From assembly GCA_035308905.1 (NCBI GenBank), contig DATGFS010000080.1, positions 1 to 55,025 on the forward strand: a DNA stretch of 55,025 bases, in the 5' to 3' direction. Numbering within the stretch: the first letter of the stretch is position 1; the number at the start of each line of letters is the position of its first letter. Source of the stretch: a bacterium. GTDB lineage: Bacteria > Sysuimicrobiota > Sysuimicrobiia > Sysuimicrobiales > Segetimicrobiaceae. The translations under genes were made by a program, and so were the position numbers. Below the pieces are notes generated by a model that was not told the DNA's origin, did not search any database, and was given only the letters and a program-made list of their open reading frames with translations. Below are positions 7,983 to 29,777 of the stretch, piece by piece.

Positions 7983-9020
7983 GTGGAGGGAATGGCGGCA
8001 GGCTATCGGGTGGCGGTGGTAGGGGCGACCGGCGCGGTCGGGCGCGAGGTGCTGCGGCTTCTGGAGTCGCGGCGGTTCCCGGTGGGCCGGCTGCGGCTCG
8101 TGGCGACGCAGCGCTCGGCCGGACGGCGCATCGGGCCGCACGTCGTGAAGCCGATCGCGCCCGAGGTGTTCGACGAGGTCGACGTGGCGATCTTTGACAC
8201 GCCGGACGAGGCGGCCAAGGAATGGGTGCCGGTCGCCGCCGCCCGAGGCGCCTGGGCGATCGACAACTCCGCGGCGTTTCGGATGGCGGACGACGTGCCG
8301 CTCGTGATCCCGGAAGTCAATGCGCACGCGCTGCGCCGGGCGCCGCGGCGCATCATCGCCAACCCGAACTGCACCACCGCGACCGTGGCGGTGCCGCTCG
8401 CGCCGCTGCACCGGGCGGCCCGCCTGCGCCGGCTGATCGCCTGCTCGTACCAGTCCGCGTCCGGCGCCGGCCAGCGCGGCCTGGATCAGTTGTGGGCGGA
8501 GCTCAAGGAAGCGGCCGCCACCGGCCGGGCGCCGGAGGCCCCGCGCGGCGAGGTCTCGCCGAAGCACCCGATGGCGCTCAACATCATTCCGGCCGTCGGC
8601 TCGCTGCGCGGCGCGCACACGAGCGAAGAGGTCAAGATGCAGGCGGAGCTGCGGAAGATGCTCGAGGCGCCCGATCTCGTCTGCGGCGCGACCTGCGTCC
8701 GCGTGCCGACGCTGCGCGCCCACGGCGTGGCGGCGCACGCCGACTTCGCCGAGCCGTTGTCCGCGGAGCGCGCCCGCGAACTGCTGGCCGGGGCGCCCGG
8801 CGTGGAGGTGGTGGACGATCCGGCCGCGGGAGACTTTCCGACCGCGATCGCGGCCGCGGACCGCGAGCCGTGCTACGTCGGCCGGATCCGGATCGACGCC
8901 GCGGGGTGCCTCGCCTTCTTCGCCGTGGCAGACAACCTCTGGAAGGGCGCGGCGCTCAACACCGTCCAGATCGCGGAGACGCTCGTGCGCGACGGGCTGC
9001 TGACGCCGGCGCGCGCCTGA
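7983..9020 (+). CDS. asd: Aspartate-semialdehyde dehydrogenase
   Basis: A 345-residue enzyme that reduces aspartyl phosphate to aspartate semialdehyde, the DapA substrate. Seen: Rossmann motif VVGATGAVG near residue 12, the phosphate loop DNSAAFRM (94-101), the catalytic Cys130 in NPNCTT, and SYQSASGAGQ. The start is uncertain. GTG 7983 has GAGGGT (7970-7975) at good spacing; ATG 7992, three codons later, has a site only 2 nt away. Both give a normal N-terminus. It sits 54 nt after dapB. Confidence 0.94.
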   Translation: MEGMAAGYRVAVVGATGAVGREVLRLLESRRFPVGRLRLVATQRSAGRRIGPHVVKPIAPEVFDEVDVAIFDTPDEAAKEWVPVAAARGAWAIDNSAAFRMADDVPLVIPEVNAHALRRAPRRIIANPNCTTATVAVPLAPLHRAARLRRLIACSYQSASGAGQRGLDQLWAELKEAAATGRAPEAPRGEVSPKHPMALNIIPAVGSLRGAHTSEEVKMQAELRKMLEAPDLVCGATCVRVPTLRAHGVAAHADFAEPLSAERARELLAGAPGVEVVDDPAAGDFPTAIAAADREPCYVGRIRIDAAGCLAFFAVADNLWKGAALNTVQIAETLVRDGLLTPARA

Positions 9021-9217
9021 CGCGCAAGATTCTCGACGGTTCTTGAAGGAGGCGCCGCCTGGAAGACGGAACGTCTCCTGCGACGCCGGCTTTAATTACA
9101 TGGTGGCCGGCGCGTTTTGGCCCGCGCCGCAGGCCCAGGGTCGGCCGGCACATATCGCCGGCTAGTCCCGTAAAGGGGCGACGGCGGGTCGACATCACAC
9201 GCAAGGGGGTGACCGGG
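9021..9217 (+). other. asd-dapA intergenic region with two short GC hairpins
   Basis: A 197-nt gap. CGCCGGC can pair with GCCGGCG across an AT-rich loop (about 9095-9125), and CGGCGCG with CGCGCCG just after. No clear promoter boxes, riboswitch consensus or ORF were recognised. The hairpins could be attenuator-like, but without a leader peptide or U-tract this is not supported. Confidence 0.3.
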
Positions 9218-10111
9218 ATGGCGGACTTCGGACGCGTGATCACGGCGATGGTGACGCCGATGGATAAGTCCCTCGCGGTCGATTACGCCAAGGCGGCGGC
9301 CCTTGCGACGCGCCTGGCGGACCAGGGCTCGGACGGGCTGGTGGTGTGCGGGACCACCGGCGAGTCGCCGACGCTCAGCGACGAGGAGAAGATCCGCCTG
9401 TTTCACACGGTGCGGGAGGCCGTGGCCGCGCGCACCGCGGTGATCGCCGGCACCGGCACCTACGATACGGCGCACAGCATCCACCTGACGAAGGAGGCCG
9501 AGAAGGCAGGCTGCGACGGCGTGCTGCTTGTGAACCCGTATTACAATAAGCCGTCGCAGGAGGGCCTGTACCGGCACTTCCGGGCCGTGGCGGAGAGCAC
9601 GCGCCTGCCCGTGATGCTCTACAATATTCAGGGCCGCACGTCGGTCAACTGCGAGCCCGCGACGATCGCGCGCCTCGCCGAGGTGCCCAACATCGCCGCC
9701 GTCAAGGAGGCGAGCGGCAGCCTCGACCAGATGTCGCAGATCCGCAAACTCACTCCGCCGTCGTTCCGGCTCTACAGCGGCGACGACAGCCTGACGCTGC
9801 CGCTGCTCGCCGTCGGCGGGCACGGCGTCGTGAGCGTCGCGGGGCACATCGCGGGGCGCGAGATCAAGGAGATGATCCTCGCGTTCGCGTCCGGCGACGT
9901 CCGGAAGGCGCAGGCGCTCCATTTCCGGCTGTGGCCGCTGTTCAAGGTGCTCTTCATCACCACGAACCCGACCCCGGTGAAGGCGGCGCTCGCGATGGCC
10001 GGCTTCGACCCCGGCGGGCTCCGCCTGCCGTTGGTCGAGGTGACGCCGAACGAGCGCGAGCAGATCGCCACGGTGCTGAAGGACCTCGCCCTGGCCGCGG
10101 TGCCGGCCTAG
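9218..10111 (+). CDS. dapA: 4-hydroxy-tetrahydrodipicolinate synthase
   Basis: A 297-residue TIM-barrel aldolase condensing pyruvate with aspartate semialdehyde. Seen: GTTGE (45-49), the Tyr of the catalytic triad (Y110 region, NPYYNKPSQEGLYRHF), Y135 in LYNIQGRT, and the Schiff-base lysine K163 in AAVKEASG. The usual YNVPGRT reads YNIQGRT, replacing the conserved Pro with Gln. ATG 9218 is placed 6 nt after AGGGGGTG; GTG 9209 lies inside that site. It completes the dapB-asd-dapA set. Confidence 0.95.
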   Translation: MADFGRVITAMVTPMDKSLAVDYAKAAALATRLADQGSDGLVVCGTTGESPTLSDEEKIRLFHTVREAVAARTAVIAGTGTYDTAHSIHLTKEAEKAGCDGVLLVNPYYNKPSQEGLYRHFRAVAESTRLPVMLYNIQGRTSVNCEPATIARLAEVPNIAAVKEASGSLDQMSQIRKLTPPSFRLYSGDDSLTLPLLAVGGHGVVSVAGHIAGREIKEMILAFASGDVRKAQALHFRLWPLFKVLFITTNPTPVKAALAMAGFDPGGLRLPLVEVTPNEREQIATVLKDLALAAVPA

Positions 10112-16895: not shown

Positions 16896-18266
16896 CTAGG
16901 CGAGCCAGTGTTCGGTGGTTGCGACGTCCGCGCCCCTGACTTGCCACAAGGGCGCCCGCTCGGGATGGTAGCGGGACCCGATCGGAATGGAATAGGTATC
17001 TCCGTCCGCGTAGGAACGCTCGCGTTCCTCGGTGCGGTTGAGCAGTTTGCGGAACGCGAGGGTGCCGGCGGACGGTTGATGTTCGTACAGCCGGCCCGCG
17101 AACACGTCCGTGAGCAGATCCGTGTAGCGACGGTGCACGCATGCCGCGAACGTAAACGGCTGTTCCCAGAACAGGTCGATCATGTCTTCGAGAACGTCGA
17201 TGCCGCGTTCGCTCGACAGCTGGTAGCCTGCAAACGGATTGCCGTTGTCTGTGCGCGCGTTCCCGAGGTACGCGCGCACGAGTGGTGCGATGAACTCAGC
17301 TTCCCGCATCGCGACCGTCACGCCGAACGAAAAGATCGGGTCGATGAAGCGGTGCGCATCTCCGATGCAAAGGAAACCCTTTCCGGAAAACCCGCGGACC
17401 TGGTACGAGTAGTTGGGAATGACGTGGACGTCCTCGACCAGATGGGCCTCGGGAATCCGCCTCGCCAACTCGGGATTGAGCTCACGAATCTCGCGGAGCA
17501 GGAAATCCTGCTTGCTCTCCTTTCGGTCGAGGAAGTAGGCGGACGGGCAGACAATTCCGACGCTTGTGACCTCGCCGTCGATCGGGATAAACCAGGCCCA
17601 GTGAAACTTCTGCTGGTACAGGATGACCGTGTTGCCGGGCTTTTCGTCTCTCGCCTCCCCGGAGTCCCGAATCGCTCCCGTCACCTGGGAGAAGAACGCG
17701 ACCTGCCGATCGTATGCGCCCAGGTACTTTGGGCCGGTCGCTCTGTGGTTTGCGAGGAAGGTGGCTTGGCCGGAGCAGTCGAGCAGCAACTCGGATTCGA
17801 TGTCGAGCGTGCCGCCGCCACCGGCCTGTACCCGCACGCCGTGCACCGAGCCGTCGTCATGCACGAGGGGCCTGATCGCCTTGCCGGGCAGGAACTCGGC
17901 GCCGCGCCGCCGCGCCTCGCTGAACATCATCGCGTCGAACTCGCTGCGCCGGACCGACCACGTGAAGCTGTCTTGGAGCCGCCAGTTCTCGTCCCGGGCC
18001 GTCACCGGTACAAACCACGAGGTCCGGGCGGTAGGTCCGTAGACCTTGACGCCGTACTTCACCGGCCACGCGCGCTCGGTCATTTTCGGCTCGAGGCCGA
18101 GCCGCCGGATGACCTGCCCGCCTTCCCCCGTCAACGATTCGCCAATGTGATACCGGGGAAACGTCTCGGCCTCGACGATCAGCGGAGTGATACCCTGCCG
18201 GAGGAGGAACATCGCGGTGGCCGCTCCGGCCGGTCCCCCGCCAACGATGACGACATCCCGCTTCAT
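16896..18266 (-). CDS. Flavin-dependent halogenase-like FAD enzyme
   Basis: A 456-residue FAD enzyme of the PHBH-fold halogenase group, which uses FADH2 and chloride or bromide to halogenate aromatic or carrier-bound substrates. Seen: dinucleotide motif VIVGGGPAG (6-14), PRYHIGESL (37-45), a candidate catalytic lysine K70, the halogenase signature WAWFIP (223-228; family W-x-W-x-I-P), and a GDAHRFIDPIFSFGV flavin loop. ATG 18266 follows AGGAGG by 8 nt. No flavin reductase is in the window. Geranylgeranyl-reductase-like enzymes are the main alternative but normally lack W-x-W-x-I-P. The nearby carrier protein suggests a tethered substrate (inference). Confidence 0.75.
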   Translation of the reverse strand: MKRDVVIVGGGPAGAATAMFLLRQGITPLIVEAETFPRYHIGESLTGEGGQVIRRLGLEPKMTERAWPVKYGVKVYGPTARTSWFVPVTARDENWRLQDSFTWSVRRSEFDAMMFSEARRRGAEFLPGKAIRPLVHDDGSVHGVRVQAGGGGTLDIESELLLDCSGQATFLANHRATGPKYLGAYDRQVAFFSQVTGAIRDSGEARDEKPGNTVILYQQKFHWAWFIPIDGEVTSVGIVCPSAYFLDRKESKQDFLLREIRELNPELARRIPEAHLVEDVHVIPNYSYQVRGFSGKGFLCIGDAHRFIDPIFSFGVTVAMREAEFIAPLVRAYLGNARTDNGNPFAGYQLSSERGIDVLEDMIDLFWEQPFTFAACVHRRYTDLLTDVFAGRLYEHQPSAGTLAFRKLLNRTEERERSYADGDTYSIPIGSRYHPERAPLWQVRGADVATTEHWLA

Positions 18267-18372
18267 CAGTCGAACCTCCTCAACAACGCGGTCTCCGTCG
18301 ACCACCCCGTACGGACGCGCAGACCTGTCCAATGGTCCTCCACAGAGTACCCGCCCGCCGCAACGGCACATA

Positions 18373-18386
18373 CCATCGTTGGATGG
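18373..18386. promoter_or_regulatory. Palindrome CCATCGTTGGATGG, candidate operator upstream of the halogenase
   Basis: CCATC and GATGG flank a GTTG centre in the 229-nt divergent region between the halogenase and the SGNH-like gene. The centre is about 114 nt upstream of the halogenase ATG. The same architecture recurs at 27699-27712 and 54278-54291. No other convincing motif was found in this gap. Confidence 0.55.
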
Positions 18387-18495
18387 AACCAGCAGCCAAC
18401 CCCAGATGACAATCGATGATATGCCGACGGCGCCAAACAAGCGTTCGCGGCGACCGGCCGAGGGCCACCCGGCGACTACTTCGAAGTATCAGGCC

Positions 18496-19632
18496 ATGCG
18501 GCTCATTCGCAACCTTGCCTTCGCCCTTCTGCTTGGTGTCACCATAGCGCTGCCGCTCGGCTCCGCCCATCCGTCGGACGCGCCGTTTCGGGCAACGCCG
18601 CTCGTTGACTTTGCCCCGAACGAACGCTATCTTCGTCGGTTCGAAGGATTGCTGTACACCGATCCGGCGACAGGTCGCAGCAGCAACGACGTCCCCGCGC
18701 AGCACGACGCCGACGGGAGGAGGATCGCATCCCAGATCGTGCCCCTGGACGCCGACGGCCGGCCATCGCCGTCCGGCAAGATCGGCGTCGTGGCACTGGG
18801 AATGAGCAATTGGACTATGGAGTGGTGCCGGGAGCAGTTCAGGGATTTGAGCCAGTGCACCCCGGACTCTTTTCTCCCGCTGGCGCGCTCCAATCCCGAG
18901 GTCAATCACACGACGCTGGTTCTGGCCGATTGTGCTTTTGCCGGTCTGGTTGCCTACAACTGGGTCGACAATCATAGAAACCCCGGGGCATATACGCTGT
19001 GTCTCACCCAGCGGCTTCCGCTGTGGGGGATAGCGGCGAAGCAGGTCGAGGTCGTGCTGTGGAAAAACGCCGACCCGATCAGATCGGACAATTGGCCGCC
19101 GATGTCCCCGGGCATGGTTTGTCGGGTTGCCGGCGCTCTCAATGCCTCCAACCCGGCAGTGCAGGGATCACCTGATGCGTGCAACTATGAGCGATATACG
19201 GGCATGATGGCTCGTTTCCTGAAGAGCGTCTTCCCTAACGTGAAGCAACTGTTTGTACATGCGCGGATCTATGGTGGCTATGCGACCACGACCCTTAATC
19301 CCGAGCCGTACGCCTACGAGACAGGCTTCGCCACGAAGTGGCTGGTCGACTCACAGATCCGCCAGGTCGCGACTGGTCGGATCGATCCGGTTGCCGGCGA
19401 TCTCGATTATCGCAACGGCGAGGCGCCGTGGATCGCGTGGGGCCCGTATTGGTGGGCTGCCGGCAACACGCCGTGCCGCAATTGCGCGGAGTCCGGGATC
19501 ACCTGGGCGGCCGACGACTTCGATCCCCGCGACGGCATACACCCATCGCCACACGGTGTCGCGAAAGTGGCACGGATGCTGCAGCGGTATTATTTGCAGA
19601 GTCCCTATAGTCCGTGGTTCCGGGCGCACTGA
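18496..19632 (+). CDS. Secreted SGNH/GDSL-like protein
   Basis: A 378-residue protein with a signal peptide (MRLIRNLAFALLLGVTIALP, cleavage near SAHP). Two SGNH landmarks are visible: a block I-like strand ending in GMSN (IGVVALGMSNWTME), with Ser where GDS is usual, and a late DGIHPSPHGVAKVA supplying the Asp-x-x-His pair. In between is ARIYGGYATTTLNPEPYAYE, which I recall from uncharacterised proteins of this type. Such folds are often carbohydrate esterases or acyltransferases; the substrate is unknown. ATG 18496 was chosen for the signal peptide; in-frame ATGs at 18406 and 18421 would add a low-complexity extension. The base composition looks somewhat more AT-rich than the core genes. Confidence 0.65.
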   Translation: MRLIRNLAFALLLGVTIALPLGSAHPSDAPFRATPLVDFAPNERYLRRFEGLLYTDPATGRSSNDVPAQHDADGRRIASQIVPLDADGRPSPSGKIGVVALGMSNWTMEWCREQFRDLSQCTPDSFLPLARSNPEVNHTTLVLADCAFAGLVAYNWVDNHRNPGAYTLCLTQRLPLWGIAAKQVEVVLWKNADPIRSDNWPPMSPGMVCRVAGALNASNPAVQGSPDACNYERYTGMMARFLKSVFPNVKQLFVHARIYGGYATTTLNPEPYAYETGFATKWLVDSQIRQVATGRIDPVAGDLDYRNGEAPWIAWGPYWWAAGNTPCRNCAESGITWAADDFDPRDGIHPSPHGVAKVARMLQRYYLQSPYSPWFRAH

Positions 19633-20925: not shown

Positions 20926-21189
20926 CTAGGACGTCGGACTCTTCGCCGCGCGCTTTCGGTCGATCATCGACGTAATACTCTTCAACGTCGCGAAATTGCT
21001 CGGCACCAGTTCGTCATCCGCGATGTCCACGCCAAGCTCATCCTCGAGGAAGGAAATCAGCATCAGCAGCCCCATCGAGTCGATGACGTGATTGGCGATC
21101 AGCGGATAGTCTTCGGTCAGGGCGCCTACGTCGCCCCCCCAGTGCAGTTCCTGAATGATGAAGTCCCGAACGCTATCGATATGGGACAT
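20926..21189 (-). CDS. Acyl/peptidyl carrier protein
   Basis: An 87-residue four-helix carrier protein. The phosphopantetheine site is Ser38 in NHVIDSMGLLMLISFLE (the D-S-M/L family motif), and ELGVDIADDEL follows in helix II/III. It has its own AGGAGG 6 nt before ATG 21189, and is separated from the upstream hydrolase by 65 nt, unlike the overlapping genes before it. It is not next to fatty-acid genes, so it is probably a dedicated carrier for the adjacent ligase and, by inference, for the dehydrogenase and halogenase. No phosphopantetheinyl transferase is in the window. Confidence 0.85.
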   Translation of the reverse strand: MSHIDSVRDFIIQELHWGGDVGALTEDYPLIANHVIDSMGLLMLISFLEDELGVDIADDELVPSNFATLKSITSMIDRKRAAKSPTS

Positions 21190-21254: not shown

Positions 21255-22163
21255 TTATCGCCGGCGCCCCGAGGCCGCGTGCTCCATCCACTTCTCGAGG
21301 CAGGCAACCGTTTGCTGCTGTATCCGCAGGCTCGTCCACTCGTGCACGTTGCCGTCGAGCACTCGCATTTGCACGCAGGCCCTGCCTTGCGCAAGCACCG
21401 TTCCGAGCGCACCCTTCGTCGCGCGCACGAAATTCGCGTAGTCCCCGTCGTTGTTGCCCCAGAGCAATAGCAGCGGTACTCGGGCTCGAATCAAGTCACC
21501 CACCTGCCTGAGTATGGTCGGGTGCACCCTTGGAAATGGCCACCGCATCCGGCGACCGGTGCCCCTCAACCACGCCCACAGCGCTCGAAGAACAGCGAGT
21601 CGTCGGCGTCCGTCGAGCAAGCCCAGCAACATTCCAACGCTGGGTCGGATACGGTCATGGTTTAGGTCGTGAGTGCCCATGCCGGGAGGCAGCAGCGGCA
21701 TGGATATGAGCACTGCGCCTTGGAGTCCTGGTACCCGCCGTGCGGCGGCCGCCACGGTGCGGGCGCCACCACACTTACCGATTAGGACCAGCTTGTCCAT
21801 GCCGCGGCGCCTAAGTTCCGCGACGACGGCGAACAACCCATCGGTGTGGAGCCGTCCAAGATTGAACTCACGTTCCATCCCGGTGCTGTCTCCGGTTCCT
21901 CGCATATCGTACCGAAACACGCGGAAGCCTGCCTTCGCCAGGGAGCGGGCAAGCGCGACGTTGAAGTAGTTTTTCTCCAGCGCGCCCCCCGCGGCACCGG
22001 CGAAGTGCGGGGCCACCAACACGACCGCCTGTTGACGCGGCGGGCCCGCCGGGGTAGTGAGTACGCCAAAGAGCATTTCCGACCCAGCCCGGACCCACAG
22101 CGGCGTATCGTACGGCGCTTCGATGTTATCGTGGACGCGGGGCGTACCCACGGGCGCCGTCAT
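21255..22163 (-). CDS. Alpha/beta hydrolase B2, Cys nucleophile (exosortase-A hydrolase-1-like)
   Basis: A 302-residue alpha/beta hydrolase. The nucleophile elbow is GKCGG with Cys131, the acid is probably in LLWGNNDGD, and the late His is H274 (GNVHEW), so a Cys-Asp-His triad seems complete. FRYDMRGTGDSTG is a typical early loop. Cys-type enzymes of this fold include dienelactone hydrolases and thioesterase/acyltransferase-like proteins. It resembles the hydrolases accompanying exosortase-A EPS loci. The ATG overlaps the stop of A2 by 4 nt. It is a close paralog of B1. Substrate unknown; carrier-bound acyl groups are a reasonable guess. Confidence 0.75.
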   Translation of the reverse strand: MTAPVGTPRVHDNIEAPYDTPLWVRAGSEMLFGVLTTPAGPPRQQAVVLVAPHFAGAAGGALEKNYFNVALARSLAKAGFRVFRYDMRGTGDSTGMEREFNLGRLHTDGLFAVVAELRRRGMDKLVLIGKCGGARTVAAAARRVPGLQGAVLISMPLLPPGMGTHDLNHDRIRPSVGMLLGLLDGRRRLAVLRALWAWLRGTGRRMRWPFPRVHPTILRQVGDLIRARVPLLLLWGNNDGDYANFVRATKGALGTVLAQGRACVQMRVLDGNVHEWTSLRIQQQTVACLEKWMEHAASGRRR

Positions 22164-23053
22164 CGTGCGCCCTCCAGTCGCCCGAGCCAGCCCAGGGTGG
22201 TTTCGATCAATCTGGCGCTCGACTGTGCACCGGCTATCACGAACCACTTGGAGGGATCTTCGCCTGTGATCATCACGCGCTCGACGCGCGACCCGGCGGC
22301 GGCAAGCACGTCACCGAGCGCAACATGCTCCGCCTTCCATTCATTCCGCACACCCACCTGAACGAGTAGAATCGAGCGCGCTTCGCTGGCAAGGTTCTCC
22401 CACAGGCGACACGCGGCGAGACTCTCATAGAGTGCGCGGTAAACCGGGAACCCCAGTACGTCGGCGTAGCCGTCCGTCTCGATCTCCAGGCGCACCTGGT
22501 CGAGGGTCTTCGTCAGCCTACCCTGTGTGGCGAGGGTGAAGACATTCTGCGCACGTACAAACGCCGGAAAGTATCGACGGCCGTCCGACACCGGTTCCCA
22601 AAGGGCAACCGGAATCGCGGTATCCCCCGCGACGGCCAGGCCGGCCACCAAGGCGCCCGCCCGGATGCCGCAAAATGCGAGCGATCCGGATTGCGTCAAC
22701 TCCGTCGCGATATCGGCGGCAGCTTTGGCATCGTCAGCCCAGTTGCGCAATGTGGCCGTCTCGCGGTCACCGCCGCTGTGGCCTGTCCCCCGATAGTGGA
22801 CCCGCACCGCGGCGTACCCGCGAACCGCGAATGCGCGCGCCGCGTCCACTTCGAGACGGTACAGCATACCGGCCTCTTTGGAGAAGGAAGGGCATAAGAC
22901 GACGGTCCGACGCGCGGGGGTTTGGGGCCTGTAGAGCACGCAAAAGAGGTCGCTGCCGTCGCGCCTGACGAACATCGCGTCCTCGCGTACGTGGTTGGTC
23001 TCATCGATGCGCGTCGCTGTGCGGACGGGATACGTCAGGGTTCCTATGGGCAT
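22160..23053 (-). CDS. Alpha/beta hydrolase-fold protein A2, Arg in place of nucleophile (hydrolase-2-like)
   Basis: A 297-residue alpha/beta-hydrolase-fold protein. The elbow reads GIRAG with Arg131 where Ser or Cys is expected, so it is probably not a classical hydrolase. Landmarks shared with A1: FCVLYRP, VRVHYRGTGHS, ALWEPVSDGRRYFPAFVRAQ. The G-x-R-A-G elbow is what I recall for exosortase-A-associated hydrolase 2. ATG 23053 follows GGAGGA by 7 nt; TTG 23056 is in frame but less likely. The gene begins 3 nt after the B1 stop and overlaps B2. A possible role is a partner or acyl-binding subunit for B2. Confidence 0.72.
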   Translation of the reverse strand: MPIGTLTYPVRTATRIDETNHVREDAMFVRRDGSDLFCVLYRPQTPARRTVVLCPSFSKEAGMLYRLEVDAARAFAVRGYAAVRVHYRGTGHSGGDRETATLRNWADDAKAAADIATELTQSGSLAFCGIRAGALVAGLAVAGDTAIPVALWEPVSDGRRYFPAFVRAQNVFTLATQGRLTKTLDQVRLEIETDGYADVLGFPVYRALYESLAACRLWENLASEARSILLVQVGVRNEWKAEHVALGDVLAAAGSRVERVMITGEDPSKWFVIAGAQSSARLIETTLGWLGRLEGAR

Positions 23054-23056
23054 CAA

Positions 23057-23938
23057 TCAGTCCTCCGAGTCCGCGGGCATAACGTGTTCCACCCAGCTTC
23101 GTAGGCACGCGACAATTCGCTGCTGGACCGCCAGGGTCGTCGGGTCATACACTCCGCCTTCGAGCACTTGTACCTGCGCCCGGTCGCCGCCTCGTTCCAG
23201 CAGCTTCCCGAGCGGCCCCCTCATCGCCCGCGAAAATTTTACATAGAATCTGTCGTCGGTGCCGTACAGGAAGAGCAGCGGTACCCGGGCTCGGATCGCG
23301 TTACGCACGTGCATGAGCAACACCGGGTGAAGGCCGGGAAACGGCCATCTCATCCGCCGTCCCGTACTCCTCGCCCAGGCCCACAGCGCCCGAAGAACAG
23401 CGTGCCGCCGGCGCCCATCGAACAAGCCCACCAGCATTCCCGGATTGGGCAGGAAGTAATTCCGATCGTAGGTGCCCATGCCCGGCGGGAGCAGGTTTGT
23501 GGAGATCAGCGCCACACCTTTGAGTCCGGCCAGTTGCCCGGCGGCGGCCAGCACCGTGCGCGCGCCAAAACACTTTCCGATGAGGACGACCCGGTCCATC
23601 CCGCGGCGCCGCAGTTCGGCTACGACCGCCATCACATCGTCGGTATGGAGCCTGCCGAAATTTAGCTCGGGCTCGGTTCCGGTGCTCTCTCCGGAACCTC
23701 GCATGTCGTATCGGAACACATTAAACCCGGCATTCCCCAGGCTGCGGGCGAGCGCGACGTGCAACCCGTTCTTCTCCACACGCGGGAAGACCAGCACCGC
23801 AGTGAGGCATCGGCGCGGCCCCGCCGGAGCCGTCAGTATACCGAGCAGCGCTTCAGGTCCGGACTGGACCCACACCGGTGTATCGTGCGACTTCTCGATC
23901 TCGGGACCTACGCGCGGCGTGTCCGTCGTCTGCATCAT
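23057..23938 (-). CDS. Alpha/beta hydrolase B1, Cys elbow but no late His
   Basis: A 293-residue paralog of B2. It keeps the elbow GKCFG (Cys123) and an acidic GTDD, but the residue matching B2 His274 is Tyr264 (GGVYDP). It is also about 8 residues shorter after the first strand (VLVFPRVEKNG against VLVAPHFAG plus a longer loop), where the oxyanion hole forms. B1 may thus be catalytically weakened or changed. The ATG at 23938 overlaps the A1 stop (ATGA); a long upstream open frame runs over A1 and is not used. It belongs to the duplicated A-B unit. Confidence 0.72.
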   Translation of the reverse strand: MMQTTDTPRVGPEIEKSHDTPVWVQSGPEALLGILTAPAGPRRCLTAVLVFPRVEKNGLHVALARSLGNAGFNVFRYDMRGSGESTGTEPELNFGRLHTDDVMAVVAELRRRGMDRVVLIGKCFGARTVLAAAGQLAGLKGVALISTNLLPPGMGTYDRNYFLPNPGMLVGLFDGRRRHAVLRALWAWARSTGRRMRWPFPGLHPVLLMHVRNAIRARVPLLFLYGTDDRFYVKFSRAMRGPLGKLLERGGDRAQVQVLEGGVYDPTTLAVQQRIVACLRSWVEHVMPADSED

Positions 23939-24852
23939 GGGTTGTCCCGGAGACCTTCGAGCCACCGCGCGGTGCTCTCCAACAGGACGCCGCTGGAGTG
24001 CACGTCGGGAAGCACGAACCAGTTGGCGGGATTTTCGCCGGTGATCAACGCGCGCTCGACCCGTGACCCCGCGGCGGCGAGCGCGTTGCCGAGCGTTGCG
24101 TGCTCCGCCTTCCATTCGTCCCGCATCCCCACTTGAACCAGCAAGACCGGGCGCGCCGCACATGCAAGTATCTCCCGCAACCGGCACGCGGCCAGGCTTT
24201 CGTAGAGCGCACGGTGAATGGGAAATCCGAGGGCGTCGGCGCAGCCCTTCGTCTCGATTTCTTGCCGCACTTGGGCGATGGTCTTCCGCTGACTGCCCTC
24301 GGTCGCCAGCACAAGGGCGTTCTGCGCGCGGACGAACGCCGGAACGTATCGGGCGCCGTCCGCCACCGGCTCCCACAGGGCGAGAGGAATCCCTGCACTT
24401 TCGGCGACGGCCGTCGCAGCGACGAGCGTACCCGCCCGAATCCCGATGAATGCCAGCGATTCGGATTGCGTCATCTTGGCCGCGACATTGGCGGCGGTCT
24501 TGACGTCGTCGGCCATGTCGTTCACGGTTGCGGTGCTGCGGTCGCCGTGGCTGTGCCCGGTCCCCCGGTAGTGGACGCGGACTGCCGCGTACCCCATGGC
24601 CGCAAACGCGCGCGCCGCGCCGACTTCGAAACGATACAGCATCTCCGCCTCTCCGAGAAACGAGCGGCAGATGATGACGGTCCGTCGTACCGAGCCGAGC
24701 GGTCGGTAGAGTACGCAGAAGAGGTCATGACCGCCGCGCCGCACGAACATCGCGTCTTCGCGCACGCCTGACACAGCGTCGATGCGGGTGGCCACCCGCG
24801 CCGGGTGTGCGACGGGGTCTCCCGCTTCGAGGAGGTGCTGATCCGTAATCAC
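23935..24852 (-). CDS. Alpha/beta hydrolase-fold protein A1, Arg in place of nucleophile
   Basis: A 305-residue paralog of A2 with the same Arg elbow (GIRAG, Arg139) and the same landmarks FCVLYRP, VRVHYRGTGHSHGD, LALWEPVADGARY. The start is GTG 24852, overlapping the ligase stop as GTGA with no separate ribosome-binding site, so translation probably depends on the ligase. Both A copies share the Arg, so the substitution predates the duplication and is likely functional. Its role is unknown; a non-catalytic or atypical partner of B1 is plausible. Confidence 0.72.
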   Translation of the reverse strand: MITDQHLLEAGDPVAHPARVATRIDAVSGVREDAMFVRRGGHDLFCVLYRPLGSVRRTVIICRSFLGEAEMLYRFEVGAARAFAAMGYAAVRVHYRGTGHSHGDRSTATVNDMADDVKTAANVAAKMTQSESLAFIGIRAGTLVAATAVAESAGIPLALWEPVADGARYVPAFVRAQNALVLATEGSQRKTIAQVRQEIETKGCADALGFPIHRALYESLAACRLREILACAARPVLLVQVGMRDEWKAEHATLGNALAAAGSRVERALITGENPANWFVLPDVHSSGVLLESTARWLEGLRDNP

Positions 24853-26471
24853 GCCGGAGTGGCTGGGGCGGCCGGCCGGGTCGCTTCCGTGGCCTTCAAC
24901 GCGGCCGCCAGGGCCCCGCGATCGACTTTGCCGGTCGACGTCTGCGGCAGGGTTTCAAGGAACGTGAACGACTCGGGGACCATGTACTTGGGCAGCAGGG
25001 TCGCGCTAAAGCGGGCCAGTTCGCCGTCCGTGAGTGGCCCCTGCTGCGGCACGACGAACGCCTTGAGCCGACTGCCGACCACGTCATCGGGCACGGCGAT
25101 GACCGCGCACGCCGCAACCTGCGGGTGGCTGTGCAGGGCGGCTTCAATGTCGCCGATCTCGATGCGGTAGCCGCGGCTCTTGATCTGGTGGTCGCGGCGG
25201 CCCAGGAACAGGAAATCGCCGTCGGGCGTCTCCTGCACGAGGTCGCCGGTGCGGTACACGCGCTCCGCGGTGGCACCAAACGGATGCTCGATGAAGGCGC
25301 GCGCCGTGCCCTCCGCGTTCCCCCAGTACCCGTAGGCCACGGTATCGCCCCGGACGTGCAGTTCGCCGACCTCGCCCCGCGCGGCCCGCCGCCCATCGTC
25401 GTTGACGGCAAAGACCTCGACGTTGGCGATAGCGCGCCCGATCGGAATAGGGGCCGTTTGATCCTCCGGCAGGGGGGGCACCCGGTAGTAGGTGCAGACG
25501 TTGGTCTCCGTCGGACCGTAGAGATTCGTGAATTCGGCGTGCGGCAGGAGCGCCATGAGGCGCCGGAGGTGCTTGGTCGGGAACACCTCGCCTGCGAAGA
25601 TCACGTGGCGCAGGGACGGGAGCCGGCCCGCCCTGAGGCGGCCGTGGAGCAGGAGCAGCGTCAGGATCGACGGCACGGAATACCAGATTGTTATGCGCTC
25701 CCGCTCGATAAGCTCGGCCAGCTGCGCCGGGAAGACCGACGTCTCGGGGGCAACGACGACGAGCGTTGAGGACGCCATGGCCGCGAGGTAGATGTCTAGG
25801 ATCGTCAGGTCGAAGTGGAGCGGCGCGTGGTTGGAGAGCACATCGGTGGGACGGGGCCGGAAGTAGTCACGACACCACTCGACGAAGGCCAACGCGTTCT
25901 GGTGCGAGAGCATGACCCCCTTGGGCTGTCCGGTCGACCCGGAAGTGTACAGAATGTACGCGAGATCCCGCGAAATTCCGGGCAGCGGGAATGCTTGGTC
26001 CGGCGAGGCCTCAAGGGCCTCCCGCGCCAGATGCGCCGTCCCGGCGGGCGGCGGGGGCAGATCACGTTCCCTGCCATCCAGGACGACGAAACGGTCGACC
26101 GGCGCCCCGGCCCGCCGCAATTCGTCCCAGGCGTCCGATTTTTCGCGGCCGGTCACGAGGCAGTGGATATCACAGTTCCGCGCGATGTAGGCAAGCCGCG
26201 CGGCGGGCGCAAGAGGATCGAGCGGGACGTAGGCGGCGCCGGCTTTGAGGATGCCGTAAACACCCGTGATGGCGTCCACCGACTTGGACAGGAACAATCC
26301 CACTCGGGCCCCTGGTCGTACGCCGGCATCCCTTAACACCCGCGCCAGCCGGTTGGTCCGGCGGTCGAGCTCACCGTACGAGATGGAACCGTTCGCATCG
26401 CGAACCGCCGTGTGGTCGGGGCGGCGGCACGCGGCCTCCGGCACGAGATGCGACAAGAGGTACGGTCTCAT
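24849..26471 (-). CDS. Amino-acid-type adenylating ligase (PltF-like, stand-alone A domain)
   Basis: A 540-residue ANL-family enzyme that activates a carboxylate as its adenylate and loads it on a carrier protein. Core motifs in order: TSGSTGQPKG (176-185), HFDLTILDIYLA with Asp221 (the Asp that contacts the alpha-amino group in amino-acid-activating domains), NLYGPTE (316-322), YRTGDL (406-411), DHQIKSRGYRIE (427-438) and the catalytic Lys515 in TSTGKVDR. The stretch ITIWYSVPSILTLLL resembles prolyl-carrier-protein ligases of pyrrole pathways, as I recall them. No condensation or carrier domain is fused. The ATG overlaps the dehydrogenase stop. Confidence 0.82.
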   Translation of the reverse strand: MRPYLLSHLVPEAACRRPDHTAVRDANGSISYGELDRRTNRLARVLRDAGVRPGARVGLFLSKSVDAITGVYGILKAGAAYVPLDPLAPAARLAYIARNCDIHCLVTGREKSDAWDELRRAGAPVDRFVVLDGRERDLPPPPAGTAHLAREALEASPDQAFPLPGISRDLAYILYTSGSTGQPKGVMLSHQNALAFVEWCRDYFRPRPTDVLSNHAPLHFDLTILDIYLAAMASSTLVVVAPETSVFPAQLAELIERERITIWYSVPSILTLLLLHGRLRAGRLPSLRHVIFAGEVFPTKHLRRLMALLPHAEFTNLYGPTETNVCTYYRVPPLPEDQTAPIPIGRAIANVEVFAVNDDGRRAARGEVGELHVRGDTVAYGYWGNAEGTARAFIEHPFGATAERVYRTGDLVQETPDGDFLFLGRRDHQIKSRGYRIEIGDIEAALHSHPQVAACAVIAVPDDVVGSRLKAFVVPQQGPLTDGELARFSATLLPKYMVPESFTFLETLPQTSTGKVDRGALAAALKATEATRPAAPATPA

Positions 26472-27610
26472 AAGCCCAACCTTCCCGCGATGATGTTCTT
26501 TTGAATGTCCGAGGTCCCGGAGTAGAGACGGCCTCCGACGGCGTCCCGGACGTCCCGCTCCAGTTCGTACTCTTCCGTGTAGCCGTAGCCTCCGTGGACC
26601 TGCACGGCGTCGAGGCTTGACGCAAGGAACGCTTCGCTGACGTGGAGTTTGGCCGTGGCCGATGCCGCCGACGTGTTCTGGCCGGCCGCGCGCAGCCATC
26701 CCAATTTGTAGAGCAACAGCCGGGAGGTCTCGAGTCGCACCTGCATGTCCACCAGCCGGTGGGACACAGCCTGAAACTTGCCGATCGGCTGGCCGAACTG
26801 TCGGCGCTCCTTGGCGTAGCGGATGCAGCGTTCGAGCTGCCGCTGCATCGTGCCGATCGCGCATGCCAGGATGTACCCGCGCTCCCACTCCATCGATGAG
26901 TTGAAGACGGTCAAGCCCCCTCCGAGCGGGCCTAGGAGGGTGTCCTCCGGCACCTCGCAGTCCTCGCACACGACCTCTCCCATCGGAGAGGTCCGCAAAC
27001 CCATCTTGTGTATCTCGCGGCTGACCGAAAGGCCCGGGGTATTGCGCTCGACGAGGAACGCGGAGACGCCCCAGAATCCCTCGCCGCCGGTGCGGGCGAA
27101 CACGACGAAGACGTCCGCGACCGGGGCGTTGGTGATGAATGTCTTCGTGCCGTTCAGGACGTAGCCCCCGGTGGTCCGCTCCGCCCGCGTCGTGAGCCCG
27201 AACGCATCTGAGCCGGATGCGGGTTCCGTCATCGCCTGCACGCCGATGAGGGATCCGTCGCATAGCCCCGGCAGGAATCGCCGCTTCTGATCCTCCCGGC
27301 CGAATGTAAGGATCGGCATCTGGCAGCTCCACATCTGGGCGCCGAGAGAGAACAGCAGACCGTTGTCCGCGCAGGCGTACCCGAGCGCCTCCAGCGCAAT
27401 CGCAAGCGACAGCGGGTCCAGACCGCTTCCGCCGTAGTCCTCGGGAATCGGAAATCCCTGCACGCCGAACGAGGCACACCGCTGCCACAGGATCCGCGAA
27501 AATTCCCCGCGAGCGTCCCGCCCGGCGACATCGTCGGCGAGCTCGCGGCGCGCAAAACGCACCACGGCTTCACGCAGTTCTTTCTGTTCCTTCGAAGGCT
27601 CGAAATCCAT
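26468..27610 (-). CDS. Acyl-CoA dehydrogenase-family flavoenzyme (PltE/RedW-like)
   Basis: A 380-residue FAD dehydrogenase, first gene of the minus-strand operon. Family landmarks: PEDYGGSGLDPL, AMTEPASGSDAFGL, GTKTFITNAP, FNSSMEWERGYI, RRQFGQPIGKFQAVSHRLVDM and GTSDIQ. In medium-chain enzymes the last motif carries the catalytic Glu; here it is Asp368. As I recall, dehydrogenases that oxidise prolyl-carrier protein to the pyrrole share NAP-ADIF, SSM-WER and GTSD features. A fatty-acyl or isovaleryl-type dehydrogenase is the alternative. ATG 27610 has only a weak G-rich upstream site. The adjoining ligase and carrier protein favour a tethered substrate. Confidence 0.8.
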   Translation of the reverse strand: MDFEPSKEQKELREAVVRFARRELADDVAGRDARGEFSRILWQRCASFGVQGFPIPEDYGGSGLDPLSLAIALEALGYACADNGLLFSLGAQMWSCQMPILTFGREDQKRRFLPGLCDGSLIGVQAMTEPASGSDAFGLTTRAERTTGGYVLNGTKTFITNAPVADVFVVFARTGGEGFWGVSAFLVERNTPGLSVSREIHKMGLRTSPMGEVVCEDCEVPEDTLLGPLGGGLTVFNSSMEWERGYILACAIGTMQRQLERCIRYAKERRQFGQPIGKFQAVSHRLVDMQVRLETSRLLLYKLGWLRAAGQNTSAASATAKLHVSEAFLASSLDAVQVHGGYGYTEEYELERDVRDAVGGRLYSGTSDIQKNIIAGRLGL

Positions 27611-27959
27611 GCCGCCCGCGCGGCCCCCCGCCGTTTCCCGCGATTGGTACAGTCTATTGCTGCGCCCTACTTTAGGCGTTGATCTTTTGATAGTCCCCCC
27701 ATCGTGCGATGGATTTGCCCTGTCCAGTCGATGCGCGGCCCCGGCTGGTGGCAATTCGGCGCGAACGTGTCGCGACGGCGTCGCCGCCCGTACACATGCG
27801 AACACCAGATCGCTGTACGAATGAACGATCCGGTAGATCAATTGCATCAGTCAAATGTCCGGTGGGCCGAAGGGCGGGATCATGTCCAGCGGCCAACTGC
27901 ATGCTCACGAAAGCAAATCGAAGGGATCAAACGATATCGTCGGACGGCGGGGGGTACCG
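27611..27959. other. 349-nt divergent intergenic region between the dehydrogenase operon and the EPS regulator
   Basis: No gene is supported here; short open frames have no ribosome-binding site or recognisable product. It must hold promoters for the minus-strand operon and probably for the regulator at 27960, but no clear -35/-10 pair was found. Its notable element is the palindrome at 27699-27712. The AT content is locally higher around 27640-27700 and 27820-27860. Confidence 0.5.
27699..27712. promoter_or_regulatory. Perfect palindrome CCATCGTGCGATGG, candidate operator
   Basis: Six-base arms CCATCG and CGATGG flank TG. The centre is about 95 nt upstream of the dehydrogenase ATG (27610) and about 254 nt upstream of the response-regulator ATG. 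It is one of three CCATC-4 nt-GATGG elements in the window. A dimeric regulator is implied; which one is unknown. Confidence 0.6.
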
Positions 27960-28880: not shown

Positions 28881-29777
28881 ATGAAACGGCGCCGGGAAGT
28901 GCGCGCAGTGCTTGGAGCCATGCTGACGGCCGTGCTGCTGGCCGCGGTCGTACCACCGGTCTTGGGCGACGCATACGTGGTGGCGCCGGGAGACACCATG
29001 AGCGTCACCGTGCTCAACGAGCCGTCGTTGAGCGGTTCCTACACCGTCGATCCCGACGGGAAGATCGCGCTGCCGCTTGCCGGCAGCATCCCTGTCGAGG
29101 GACTGACGCTCGACCAGGTGACGTCGACGATCGCCAAGGCGCTTGAGCCCTACATTGTCAAGCCGCAGGTCACCGTGGCGCTGCGGACCGTGAGCTCCAG
29201 AAACTACGTGTACGCGCTCGGTCAGGTCACAAAAACGGGTTCGTATACGATGGAACGCGGCTGGACCATCGCCGACCTCATCGCGGCCGCGGGCGGGACC
29301 ACGTCGAGAGCCGCGCTGACCCAGGCGTTCATCCTCAGAAAGGACCAGACGATTCCCGTCGACCTCGATGCGCTGATCGTGAAGGGGCAGACGTCCGCAA
29401 ACGTGGCGCTGCAACCCGGCGACGTGATCATCGTGCCGGAGACCAAGAACACCGTGCAGGTCATGGGCGAGGTGCTCCATCCCGGCAACTACACGTTCAA
29501 GGCGGGTGATCGTGTCGTCGACGTCATCTCAACCGCCGGCGGCAATACCACAAACGCCATCATCAAGGACGTCGGCGTGATCCGGCAGGACACCACCAAG
29601 AAGGCGGCCACCGTCATTCATATCGATCTGAACAAGTTCTACAAGGCCGGCGATCAGGCCCAGAACGTACCGTTGCTGCCCGGCGACATTGTGTACGTAC
29701 CGCCGAAGGGAACGAACTGGCTCCAGGTTGTGTCGCAGCTCACCGGATTCGCGACGTTGATCACGATCTTCAAGTAG
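28881..29777 (+). CDS. Polysaccharide export protein, Wza-like (Poly_export + SLBB)
   Basis: A 298-residue secreted protein. The signal peptide (LGAMLTAVLLAAVVPPVLG) lacks a lipobox Cys, unlike enterobacterial Wza lipoprotein. The Poly_export domain starts YVVAPGDTMSVTVLNEPSLSG. Two SLBB domains follow, near 110-190 (VYALGQVTKTGSYTM) and 193-280 (VQVMGEVLHPGNYTF). There is no obvious C-terminal amphipathic barrel helix. Such proteins form the periplasmic or outer part of EPS export channels. ATG 28881 follows AGGAGGG by 6 nt. It lies directly before the Wzc-like partner. Confidence 0.92.
   Translation: MKRRREVRAVLGAMLTAVLLAAVVPPVLGDAYVVAPGDTMSVTVLNEPSLSGSYTVDPDGKIALPLAGSIPVEGLTLDQVTSTIAKALEPYIVKPQVTVALRTVSSRNYVYALGQVTKTGSYTMERGWTIADLIAAAGGTTSRAALTQAFILRKDQTIPVDLDALIVKGQTSANVALQPGDVIIVPETKNTVQVMGEVLHPGNYTFKAGDRVVDVISTAGGNTTNAIIKDVGVIRQDTTKKAATVIHIDLNKFYKAGDQAQNVPLLPGDIVYVPPKGTNWLQVVSQLTGFATLITIFK

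Follow-up and report, generated by a model that had tools for sequence, protein, structure and literature searches.

Two tandem gene pairs with arginine and cysteine at the hydrolase elbow, and their probable link to carrier-bound proline, in a bacterium of the Sysuimicrobiota

What could be the function of two adjacent pairs of alpha/beta-hydrolase-fold genes, none of which encodes a serine at the nucleophile elbow? The question is raised by a 55,025-nucleotide stretch of DNA (hereafter the window; GenBank assembly GCA_035308905.1, contig DATGFS010000080.1) from a member of the family Segetimicrobiaceae, phylum Sysuimicrobiota, in which genes of two kinds, termed A and B, follow each other in the order A1-B1-A2-B2. 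Serine alpha/beta hydrolases have Ser at the elbow; here the A proteins have Arg (GIRAG in both A1 and A2) and the B proteins Cys (GKCFG in B1 and GKCGG in B2). The gene order and the elbow residues had been read correctly in an initial annotation made from the DNA alone, with which the open reading frames (ORFs) and our alignment agree. The array is a true duplication of a gene pair whose type is known though functionally uncharacterised; this type probably constitutes a family of carrier-linked enzymes with two subunits, one branch of which is concerned with proline/pyrrole. The four genes are as follows.

23935 to 24852, minus strand: A1, alpha/beta-hydrolase fold, Arg elbow, hydr2-like (TIGR03101 top match and structure model)
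23057 to 23938, minus strand: B1, alpha/beta-hydrolase fold, Cys elbow, Asp present, Tyr in place of the late His, hydr1-like (alignment)
22160 to 23053, minus strand: A2, second A copy, Arg elbow (family model and tree)
21255 to 22163, minus strand: B2, second B copy, with Cys, Asp and His all kept (alignment and structure model)

The array is a tandem duplication of the A-B unit. A1 and A2 are 65–66% identical and B1 and B2 59% identical, and in trees of 21 and of 35–36 sequences the copies are sisters, with support of 100/100 for A1/A2 and of 100/99 and 100/100 for B1/B2. Since the sister positions in both the A and the B trees have 99–100 support, the duplication is not a chance impression, and separate acquisition of A1 and A2 and of B1 and B2, the alternative named in the initial annotation, is rejected by the phylogeny. 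Overlaps are kept at both A/B junctions (start and stop codons overlap at A1/B1 and at A2/B2, as they do between the upstream ligase gene and A1); the earlier suggestion that the unit was duplicated as a pair is borne out. Pairwise ratios of nonsynonymous to synonymous substitution (dN/dS), obtained with synonymous sites near saturation, were 0.24 (NG86) and 0.11 (YN00) for A1 versus A2 and 0.33 (NG86) and 0.18 (YN00) for B1 versus B2. Relative-rate tests with four outgroups per copy pair gave one significant result in eight (p 0.039, for B1 with one of its four outgroups) and no consistent excess for either copy. Decay of B1, as had been proposed for one of the copies, is rejected on these grounds: both copies are under purifying selection and evolve at similar rates.

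Are the Arg and Cys residues peculiar to this duplication? Three sets of genomes were searched with a profile built from five A proteins. Matches were obtained in 31 of 386 genomes, a sample that extended from relatives to remote bacteria, in 8 of 47 genomes from the phylum that includes G236, and in 11 of 395 from the class to which the Acidimicrobiia genome G431 belongs. (G numbers denote genomes, G000 being the source genome, L numbers A/B-bearing loci elsewhere, and C numbers contigs.) With two of the 37 match rows of the first search (G070:C57 and G213:C2) and one of the 11 genomes of the G431-class set (G825) left out, the sets together cover 27 genomes and give 36 rows each for A and B. 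The first set contained 50 hydrolase-fold ORFs, with Arg at the elbow in 15, Cys in 15 and Ser in 20; the Arg and Cys proteins were the halves of adjacent pairs, and the 20 Ser proteins belonged to no pair. Over all sets, Arg was found in 35 of 36 A rows and Cys in all 35 scorable B rows (the B gene of L095, cut by a contig end, was dropped from the counts). In a tree that included seven Ser hydrolases, the A, B and Ser proteins split into three groups with support of 99/98, 100/98 and 99/96. All 15 A proteins scanned matched TIGR03101 and all 15 B proteins scanned TIGR03100, and no other model matched as many members. Because of these matches, and because locus L044 shares the same residues, the Arg and Cys elbows characterise the known hydrolase 1/2 pair as well as its more distant relatives. 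An Arg-elbow A next to a Cys-elbow B is a gene pair of wide occurrence, to which both pairs of the window belong, and not a local oddity; an origin of the two residues with the local duplication, with which the initial annotation had associated them, is thereby rejected.

Judged by family models, A and B are remote kin of the exosortase A system-associated hydrolases 2 (TIGR03101) and 1 (TIGR03100), respectively. A1 (82.1 bits) and A2 (80.7 bits) fall below the TIGR03101 cut-off of 202.75 bits, as B1 (46.1 bits) and B2 (51.5 bits) fall below that of TIGR03100 (168.45 bits). L044, the B protein of which scores 199.7 bits, above the latter cut-off, has the same tandem pair arrangement and elbows as the window, and an exosortase gene lies ∼7 kb from the pair in that genome; unlike the ligase of the window, those of L044 lack the proline code described below. 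The window is not an exosortase A locus, since it lies on contig C80 and the exosortase of the same genome on C33. The latter gene is a strong match (G000, C33, 13741–14499; E 6e-77) apart from the A-B operon, and in G004, which carries the same cassette, no exosortase match was found (the genome being 89% complete). The two hydrolases of exosortase loci are names without an assigned function: literature searches found no functional work on the pair, and the word 'hydrolase' is absent from the main text of the 2006 exosortase paper (PMC1569441). PMC3584217, in the portion drawn on here, describes an exopolysaccharide cluster of Burkholderia in which a TIGR03100 gene is named a predicted hydrolase.

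A more specific indication of function comes from the remaining genes of the operon, which lies on the minus strand of C80 (one of 81 contigs of the 4.0-Mb genome) and reads dehydrogenase, adenylation enzyme, A1, B1, A2, B2, carrier protein.

26468 to 27616, minus strand: PigA/RedW/PltE-like dehydrogenase, acyl-CoA-dehydrogenase-like, prolyl-carrier-protein type (best NCBIfam models)
24849 to 26471, minus strand: stand-alone adenylation enzyme, PltF/PigI-like, predicted to be specific for L-proline (pocket code and match to 6o6e); overlaps both neighbours by a few bases
20926 to 21189, minus strand: stand-alone carrier protein with a D-S-M phosphopantetheine site (NCBIfam and sequence)

Stand-alone L-proline adenylation enzymes carry the pocket code L(L/F)YLALVC, according to the part of PMC3874040 used here. 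The pocket of the window ligase, D-LLYIALVC, agrees with this code at seven of eight positions, with Ile for Leu at the remaining one, and the enzyme matches the L-proline–carrier ligase 6o6e over its full length (E 6e-101). The best models for the dehydrogenase are PigA (439 bits) and prolyl-peptidyl-carrier-protein dehydrogenase (431 bits); these scores are below the equivalog cut-offs (500 and 650 bits, respectively) and exceed that of the next model (300 bits) by more than 130 bits. For the carrier protein the best NCBIfam models, the ornithine-lipid acyl carrier protein (ACP; 45.7 bits) and the cispentacin ACP AmcB (39.5 bits), were likewise below cut-off. PltF together with PltE/PigA/RedW thus share the ligase pocket and the best family models with the window, whereas the genes of the window sit in an A-B cassette and not in a pyoluteorin or prodigiosin cluster. 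The operon probably encodes the conversion of proline into a carrier-bound, activated pyrrole group.

The combination recurs elsewhere. Nine other ligases adjacent to A-B pairs have the full eight-position proline code (L007, L041, L042, L058, L060, L061, L062, L063 and L088), and a dehydrogenase match accompanies eight of the nine; for the dehydrogenases of L041 and L088, as for that of the window, PigA and RedW scored best among the models without reaching cut-off. In the two-pair operon of L084 (5211–12755), two weaker dehydrogenase-like ORFs lie between the pairs and the related ligase has an altered pocket (DMPYTAQVC, four of eight positions of the proline code), which suggests that the acyl group may vary. 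Adenylation or carrier genes were found within the stretch examined in 24 of 32 paired loci (window excluded), compared with none of 19 Ser-hydrolase control loci (Fisher p 4.7e-8), a comparison that is phylogenetically unbalanced in that the control loci come from other genomes and some are small, and in which the paired loci are not independent. With ligase and carrier protein genes in the operon itself, the carrier-thioester context envisaged in the initial annotation is supported.

Several lines of evidence indicate that A and B act as partners. The two genes are adjacent in every locus examined, mostly with A first. Distances in the A and B trees are correlated (Mantel r 0.914 for 35 pairs; none of 2000 permutations was as high and none exceeded 0.35), shared genome descent contributing to this correlation, though the loci are patchy. 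In L092 (3011–5227) the two domains are naturally fused into one ORF of 739 aa, beside carrier and ligase genes. Furthermore, condensation-adenylation-carrier modules of nonribosomal peptide synthetases (NRPSs) end in an A domain in L095 (1666–5931), L097 (5493–9560) and L098 (4691–8989), all three with the adenylation pocket code DLTK(V/I)GEVC. In these modules A directly follows the carrier, in the position where a thioesterase domain would be, and B is the next ORF. As the last domain after the carrier, A is placed at a carrier.

AlphaFold models of A1 and B2 (mean predicted local distance difference test scores of 90.0 and 80.1, respectively) are both alpha/beta hydrolases, with feruloyl and related esterases as the nearest solved folds. 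The elbow residue is located at the turn between a strand and a helix in each (133–138 and 141–149 in A1; 125–131 and 133–144 in B2), and in B2 the Asp and His come after two late strands, the His after the last one. Such an order is the catalytic-triad layout of the alpha/beta-hydrolase fold. Given these positions, the residue mapping, which would fail if the catalytic positions lay elsewhere, holds as far as topology is concerned. At the triad positions of the alignment, both the acid and the His are missing from the A proteins; four of the first 21 have a His one or two residues further on, which is not conserved.

On balance, and with some reserve, we favour a reading in which A-B is a two-subunit acyltransferase for carrier thioesters, with B as the catalytic subunit and A as its partner, and in which the window pairs would pass a pyrrolyl group to an exopolysaccharide sugar. 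The ligase, carrier protein and dehydrogenase would load proline and oxidise it to a pyrrole-2-carboxyl group on the carrier. The elbow Cys of B, together with Asp and usually His, would take the acyl group from the phosphopantetheine arm to give an acyl-S-enzyme, and B would then hand the prolyl or pyrrolyl group from Cys to the acceptor. A would be an old paralogue of the same fold without catalytic residues, Arg having replaced the nucleophile, and would serve as a non-catalytic partner that probably docks the carrier or closes or completes the active site of B. The A2-B2 pair would be expected to transfer to a hydroxyl or an amine; B1, with Cys and Asp and no His, may only exchange thioesters or may use another base. 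As acceptor, a sugar from the neighbouring exopolysaccharide pathway is the likeliest candidate; the locus for this pathway starts at 28881 on the opposite strand (export protein checked by family model; later genes for a chain-length protein, a UDP-sugar dehydrogenase and glycosyltransferases assigned by eye from ORF lists). L007 and L042, like the window, lie among polysaccharide genes.

A comparable route is described for clorobiocin and coumermycin, in which CloN3/4/5 produce carrier-bound pyrrolyl from proline and the acyltransferase CloN7/CouN7 then moves the group onto the product that bears the sugar, the acceptor in clorobiocin being a sugar hydroxyl (parts of PMC11218499 and PMC8748450). 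The window as read here would likewise lead from proline through a carrier-bound pyrrolyl to an acyltransferase, the likeness to CloN7 being one of described function; it differs in that the A-B unit consists of two genes and has exopolysaccharide genes nearby.

The same fold would also suit a type II thioesterase, with B hydrolysing the prolyl or pyrrolyl group off the carrier, for editing or for release of free pyrrole-2-carboxylate, and with A as a structural partner. The models are nearest to esterases, the late His accompanies Cys in 25 of the 34 scorable B proteins (from this count the B of L041 was also dropped, its C-terminal part being unaligned and continuing into the dehydrogenase frame), and several genomes have the cassette on its own, surrounded by housekeeping genes and without an evident acceptor pathway. 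However, Cys is the nucleophile throughout, a residue that known carrier-linked enzymes with this fold, such as SyrC and CmaE, often use for group transfer; B proteins without the His have been retained, and the location of A next to the carrier in NRPS modules fits transfer equally well. We consider hydrolysis unlikely. A carrier-to-carrier shuttle, the final bond being made by another enzyme, appears distinctly improbable. CysB, SyrC and CmaE, in the partial accounts available, shuttle aminoacyl groups between carriers via an enzyme-bound intermediate, an activity for which thioester exchange would suffice and B proteins without His would be adequate; two carrier genes lie near the pairs in L044 and L084. 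The window, on the other hand, has one carrier gene (searched for by similarity to its own carrier), B matched no aminoacyl-shuttle model in NCBIfam and, unlike A-B, with which they are likened by described function, the three shuttles are accompanied by no pseudo-hydrolase partner in the portions of those accounts used here.

How, then, do the two pairs of the window differ? As the initial annotation had stated, the late His is kept in B2 and replaced by Tyr in B1, and the difference of about eight residues in the oxyanion loop is real; the loop has 7 residues in B1, 15 in B2 and 8–13 in the other 34 B rows, and 8 in the His-bearing (TRPRSHRN-like) group. B2 is therefore longer as much as B1 is shorter, and the difference, which had been read as a loss in B1, gives no sign of lost function. 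The short loop as a mark of inactivity is rejected in view of the His-bearing relatives with eight residues. In place of the His, B proteins have Tyr (window B1), Ser, Thr, Arg or Gly, for which the tree needs four changes, and such proteins occur without a tandem duplication, for example in L086, L090, L091, L093 and L094, some in clades of their own. Since they recur, and since thioester exchange on Cys or another base would suffice, B1 need not be dead. In L086, L090 and L093, which group apart from the rest in the A tree and in the B tree, the gene order is B-A and Arg takes the place of the late His.

A functional split between the two pairs is possible. Its specific form in the initial annotation, compatible with the other readings, was that one pair would have transferase activity while the other would serve in binding or regulation, which we find doubtful but well worth considering. 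In its favour, B1 is without the late His and its loop is the shortest among the 36 B rows, and L009 also combines a His-bearing with a His-less pair; against this, the two-pair operon of L084 keeps the His in both B proteins, His-less B proteins are found without a tandem second pair, and B1 keeps Cys and Asp with no consistent rate excess. With L009 mixed and L084 His-bearing throughout, there is no fixed His rule in two-pair loci. Of the earlier interpretation as a whole, the duplication as a pair, the partnership and the thioester context have stood, and the local nature of Arg/Cys, the loss in the short loop and the decay have not.

Several observations weigh against the proposed acyltransferase. 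Its weakest link is the acceptor, which is guessed from neighbouring genes: markers of the polysaccharide locus of the window occur in only 7 of the 32 paired loci, and the genes that surround the same cassette in L041, L058, L061 and L063 are, as judged by eye, housekeeping ones. No adenylation or carrier gene is present in the stretch examined in 8 of the 32 paired loci, and L058 has the proline code without a dehydrogenase. In addition, the A protein of L093 has Gly for Arg, and the late His is absent from 9 of the 34 scorable B proteins.

The acyltransferase proposal can be extended to a mobile five-gene cassette (A, B, prolyl dehydrogenase, prolyl ligase and carrier) that would put pyrrole-2-carboxyl, here perhaps halogenated, on cell-surface glycans via an obligate heterodimer of pseudo-hydrolase and Cys transferase; the exosortase-associated hydrolases would be acyltransferases of the same kind, and the two pairs of the window would handle two acyl forms or acceptors. 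In this full form we hold the proposal to be unlikely. Were pyrrolyl groups placed on polysaccharide, of which literature searches found no report, natural-product chemistry would be linked to the cell surface. With the proline cassette, one branch of the family gains a substrate that can be predicted, together with a carrier and a ligase that can be produced and assayed, and the pair family as a whole is thereby opened to testing as group-transfer enzymes. For the alpha/beta-hydrolase fold itself, a further point of interest is a pseudoenzyme in which the elbow Arg is nearly invariant and which, in all loci examined, has a Cys enzyme as its neighbour.

One further gene of the window could bear on the acyl group.

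16896 to 18269, minus strand: flavin adenine dinucleotide-dependent halogenase-like protein with GGGPAG and WAWFIP motifs (family models and motifs)

The protein scores 131 bits with the CmlS model (cut-off 900) and 77.7 bits with Pfam Trp_halogenase, and its gene lies ∼2.7 kb from the carrier gene. It could possibly modify the carrier-bound pyrrole, its membership in the pathway being unproven; no counterpart was found in the other cassette loci scanned. Between this gene and the operon, a large secreted-looking protein, SGNH-type esterase-like by eye only, is encoded at 18187–19632 on the plus strand. In L058, an SGNH-like ORF (also by eye; 8822–9937) occupies the place of the dehydrogenase.

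The distribution of the operon is uneven. With A1 as query, neither the two genomes searched from the same genus nor the nine from the same family gave a match at E 1e-10, although G031, also of that family, has a remoter A-B pair; for these reasons the operon is patchy and was probably acquired. So far, this doubling of A-B has been seen only in the source lineage. A plasmid search gave no match, and a scan of contigs found two relatives, one of which is G004, a genome of the same order.

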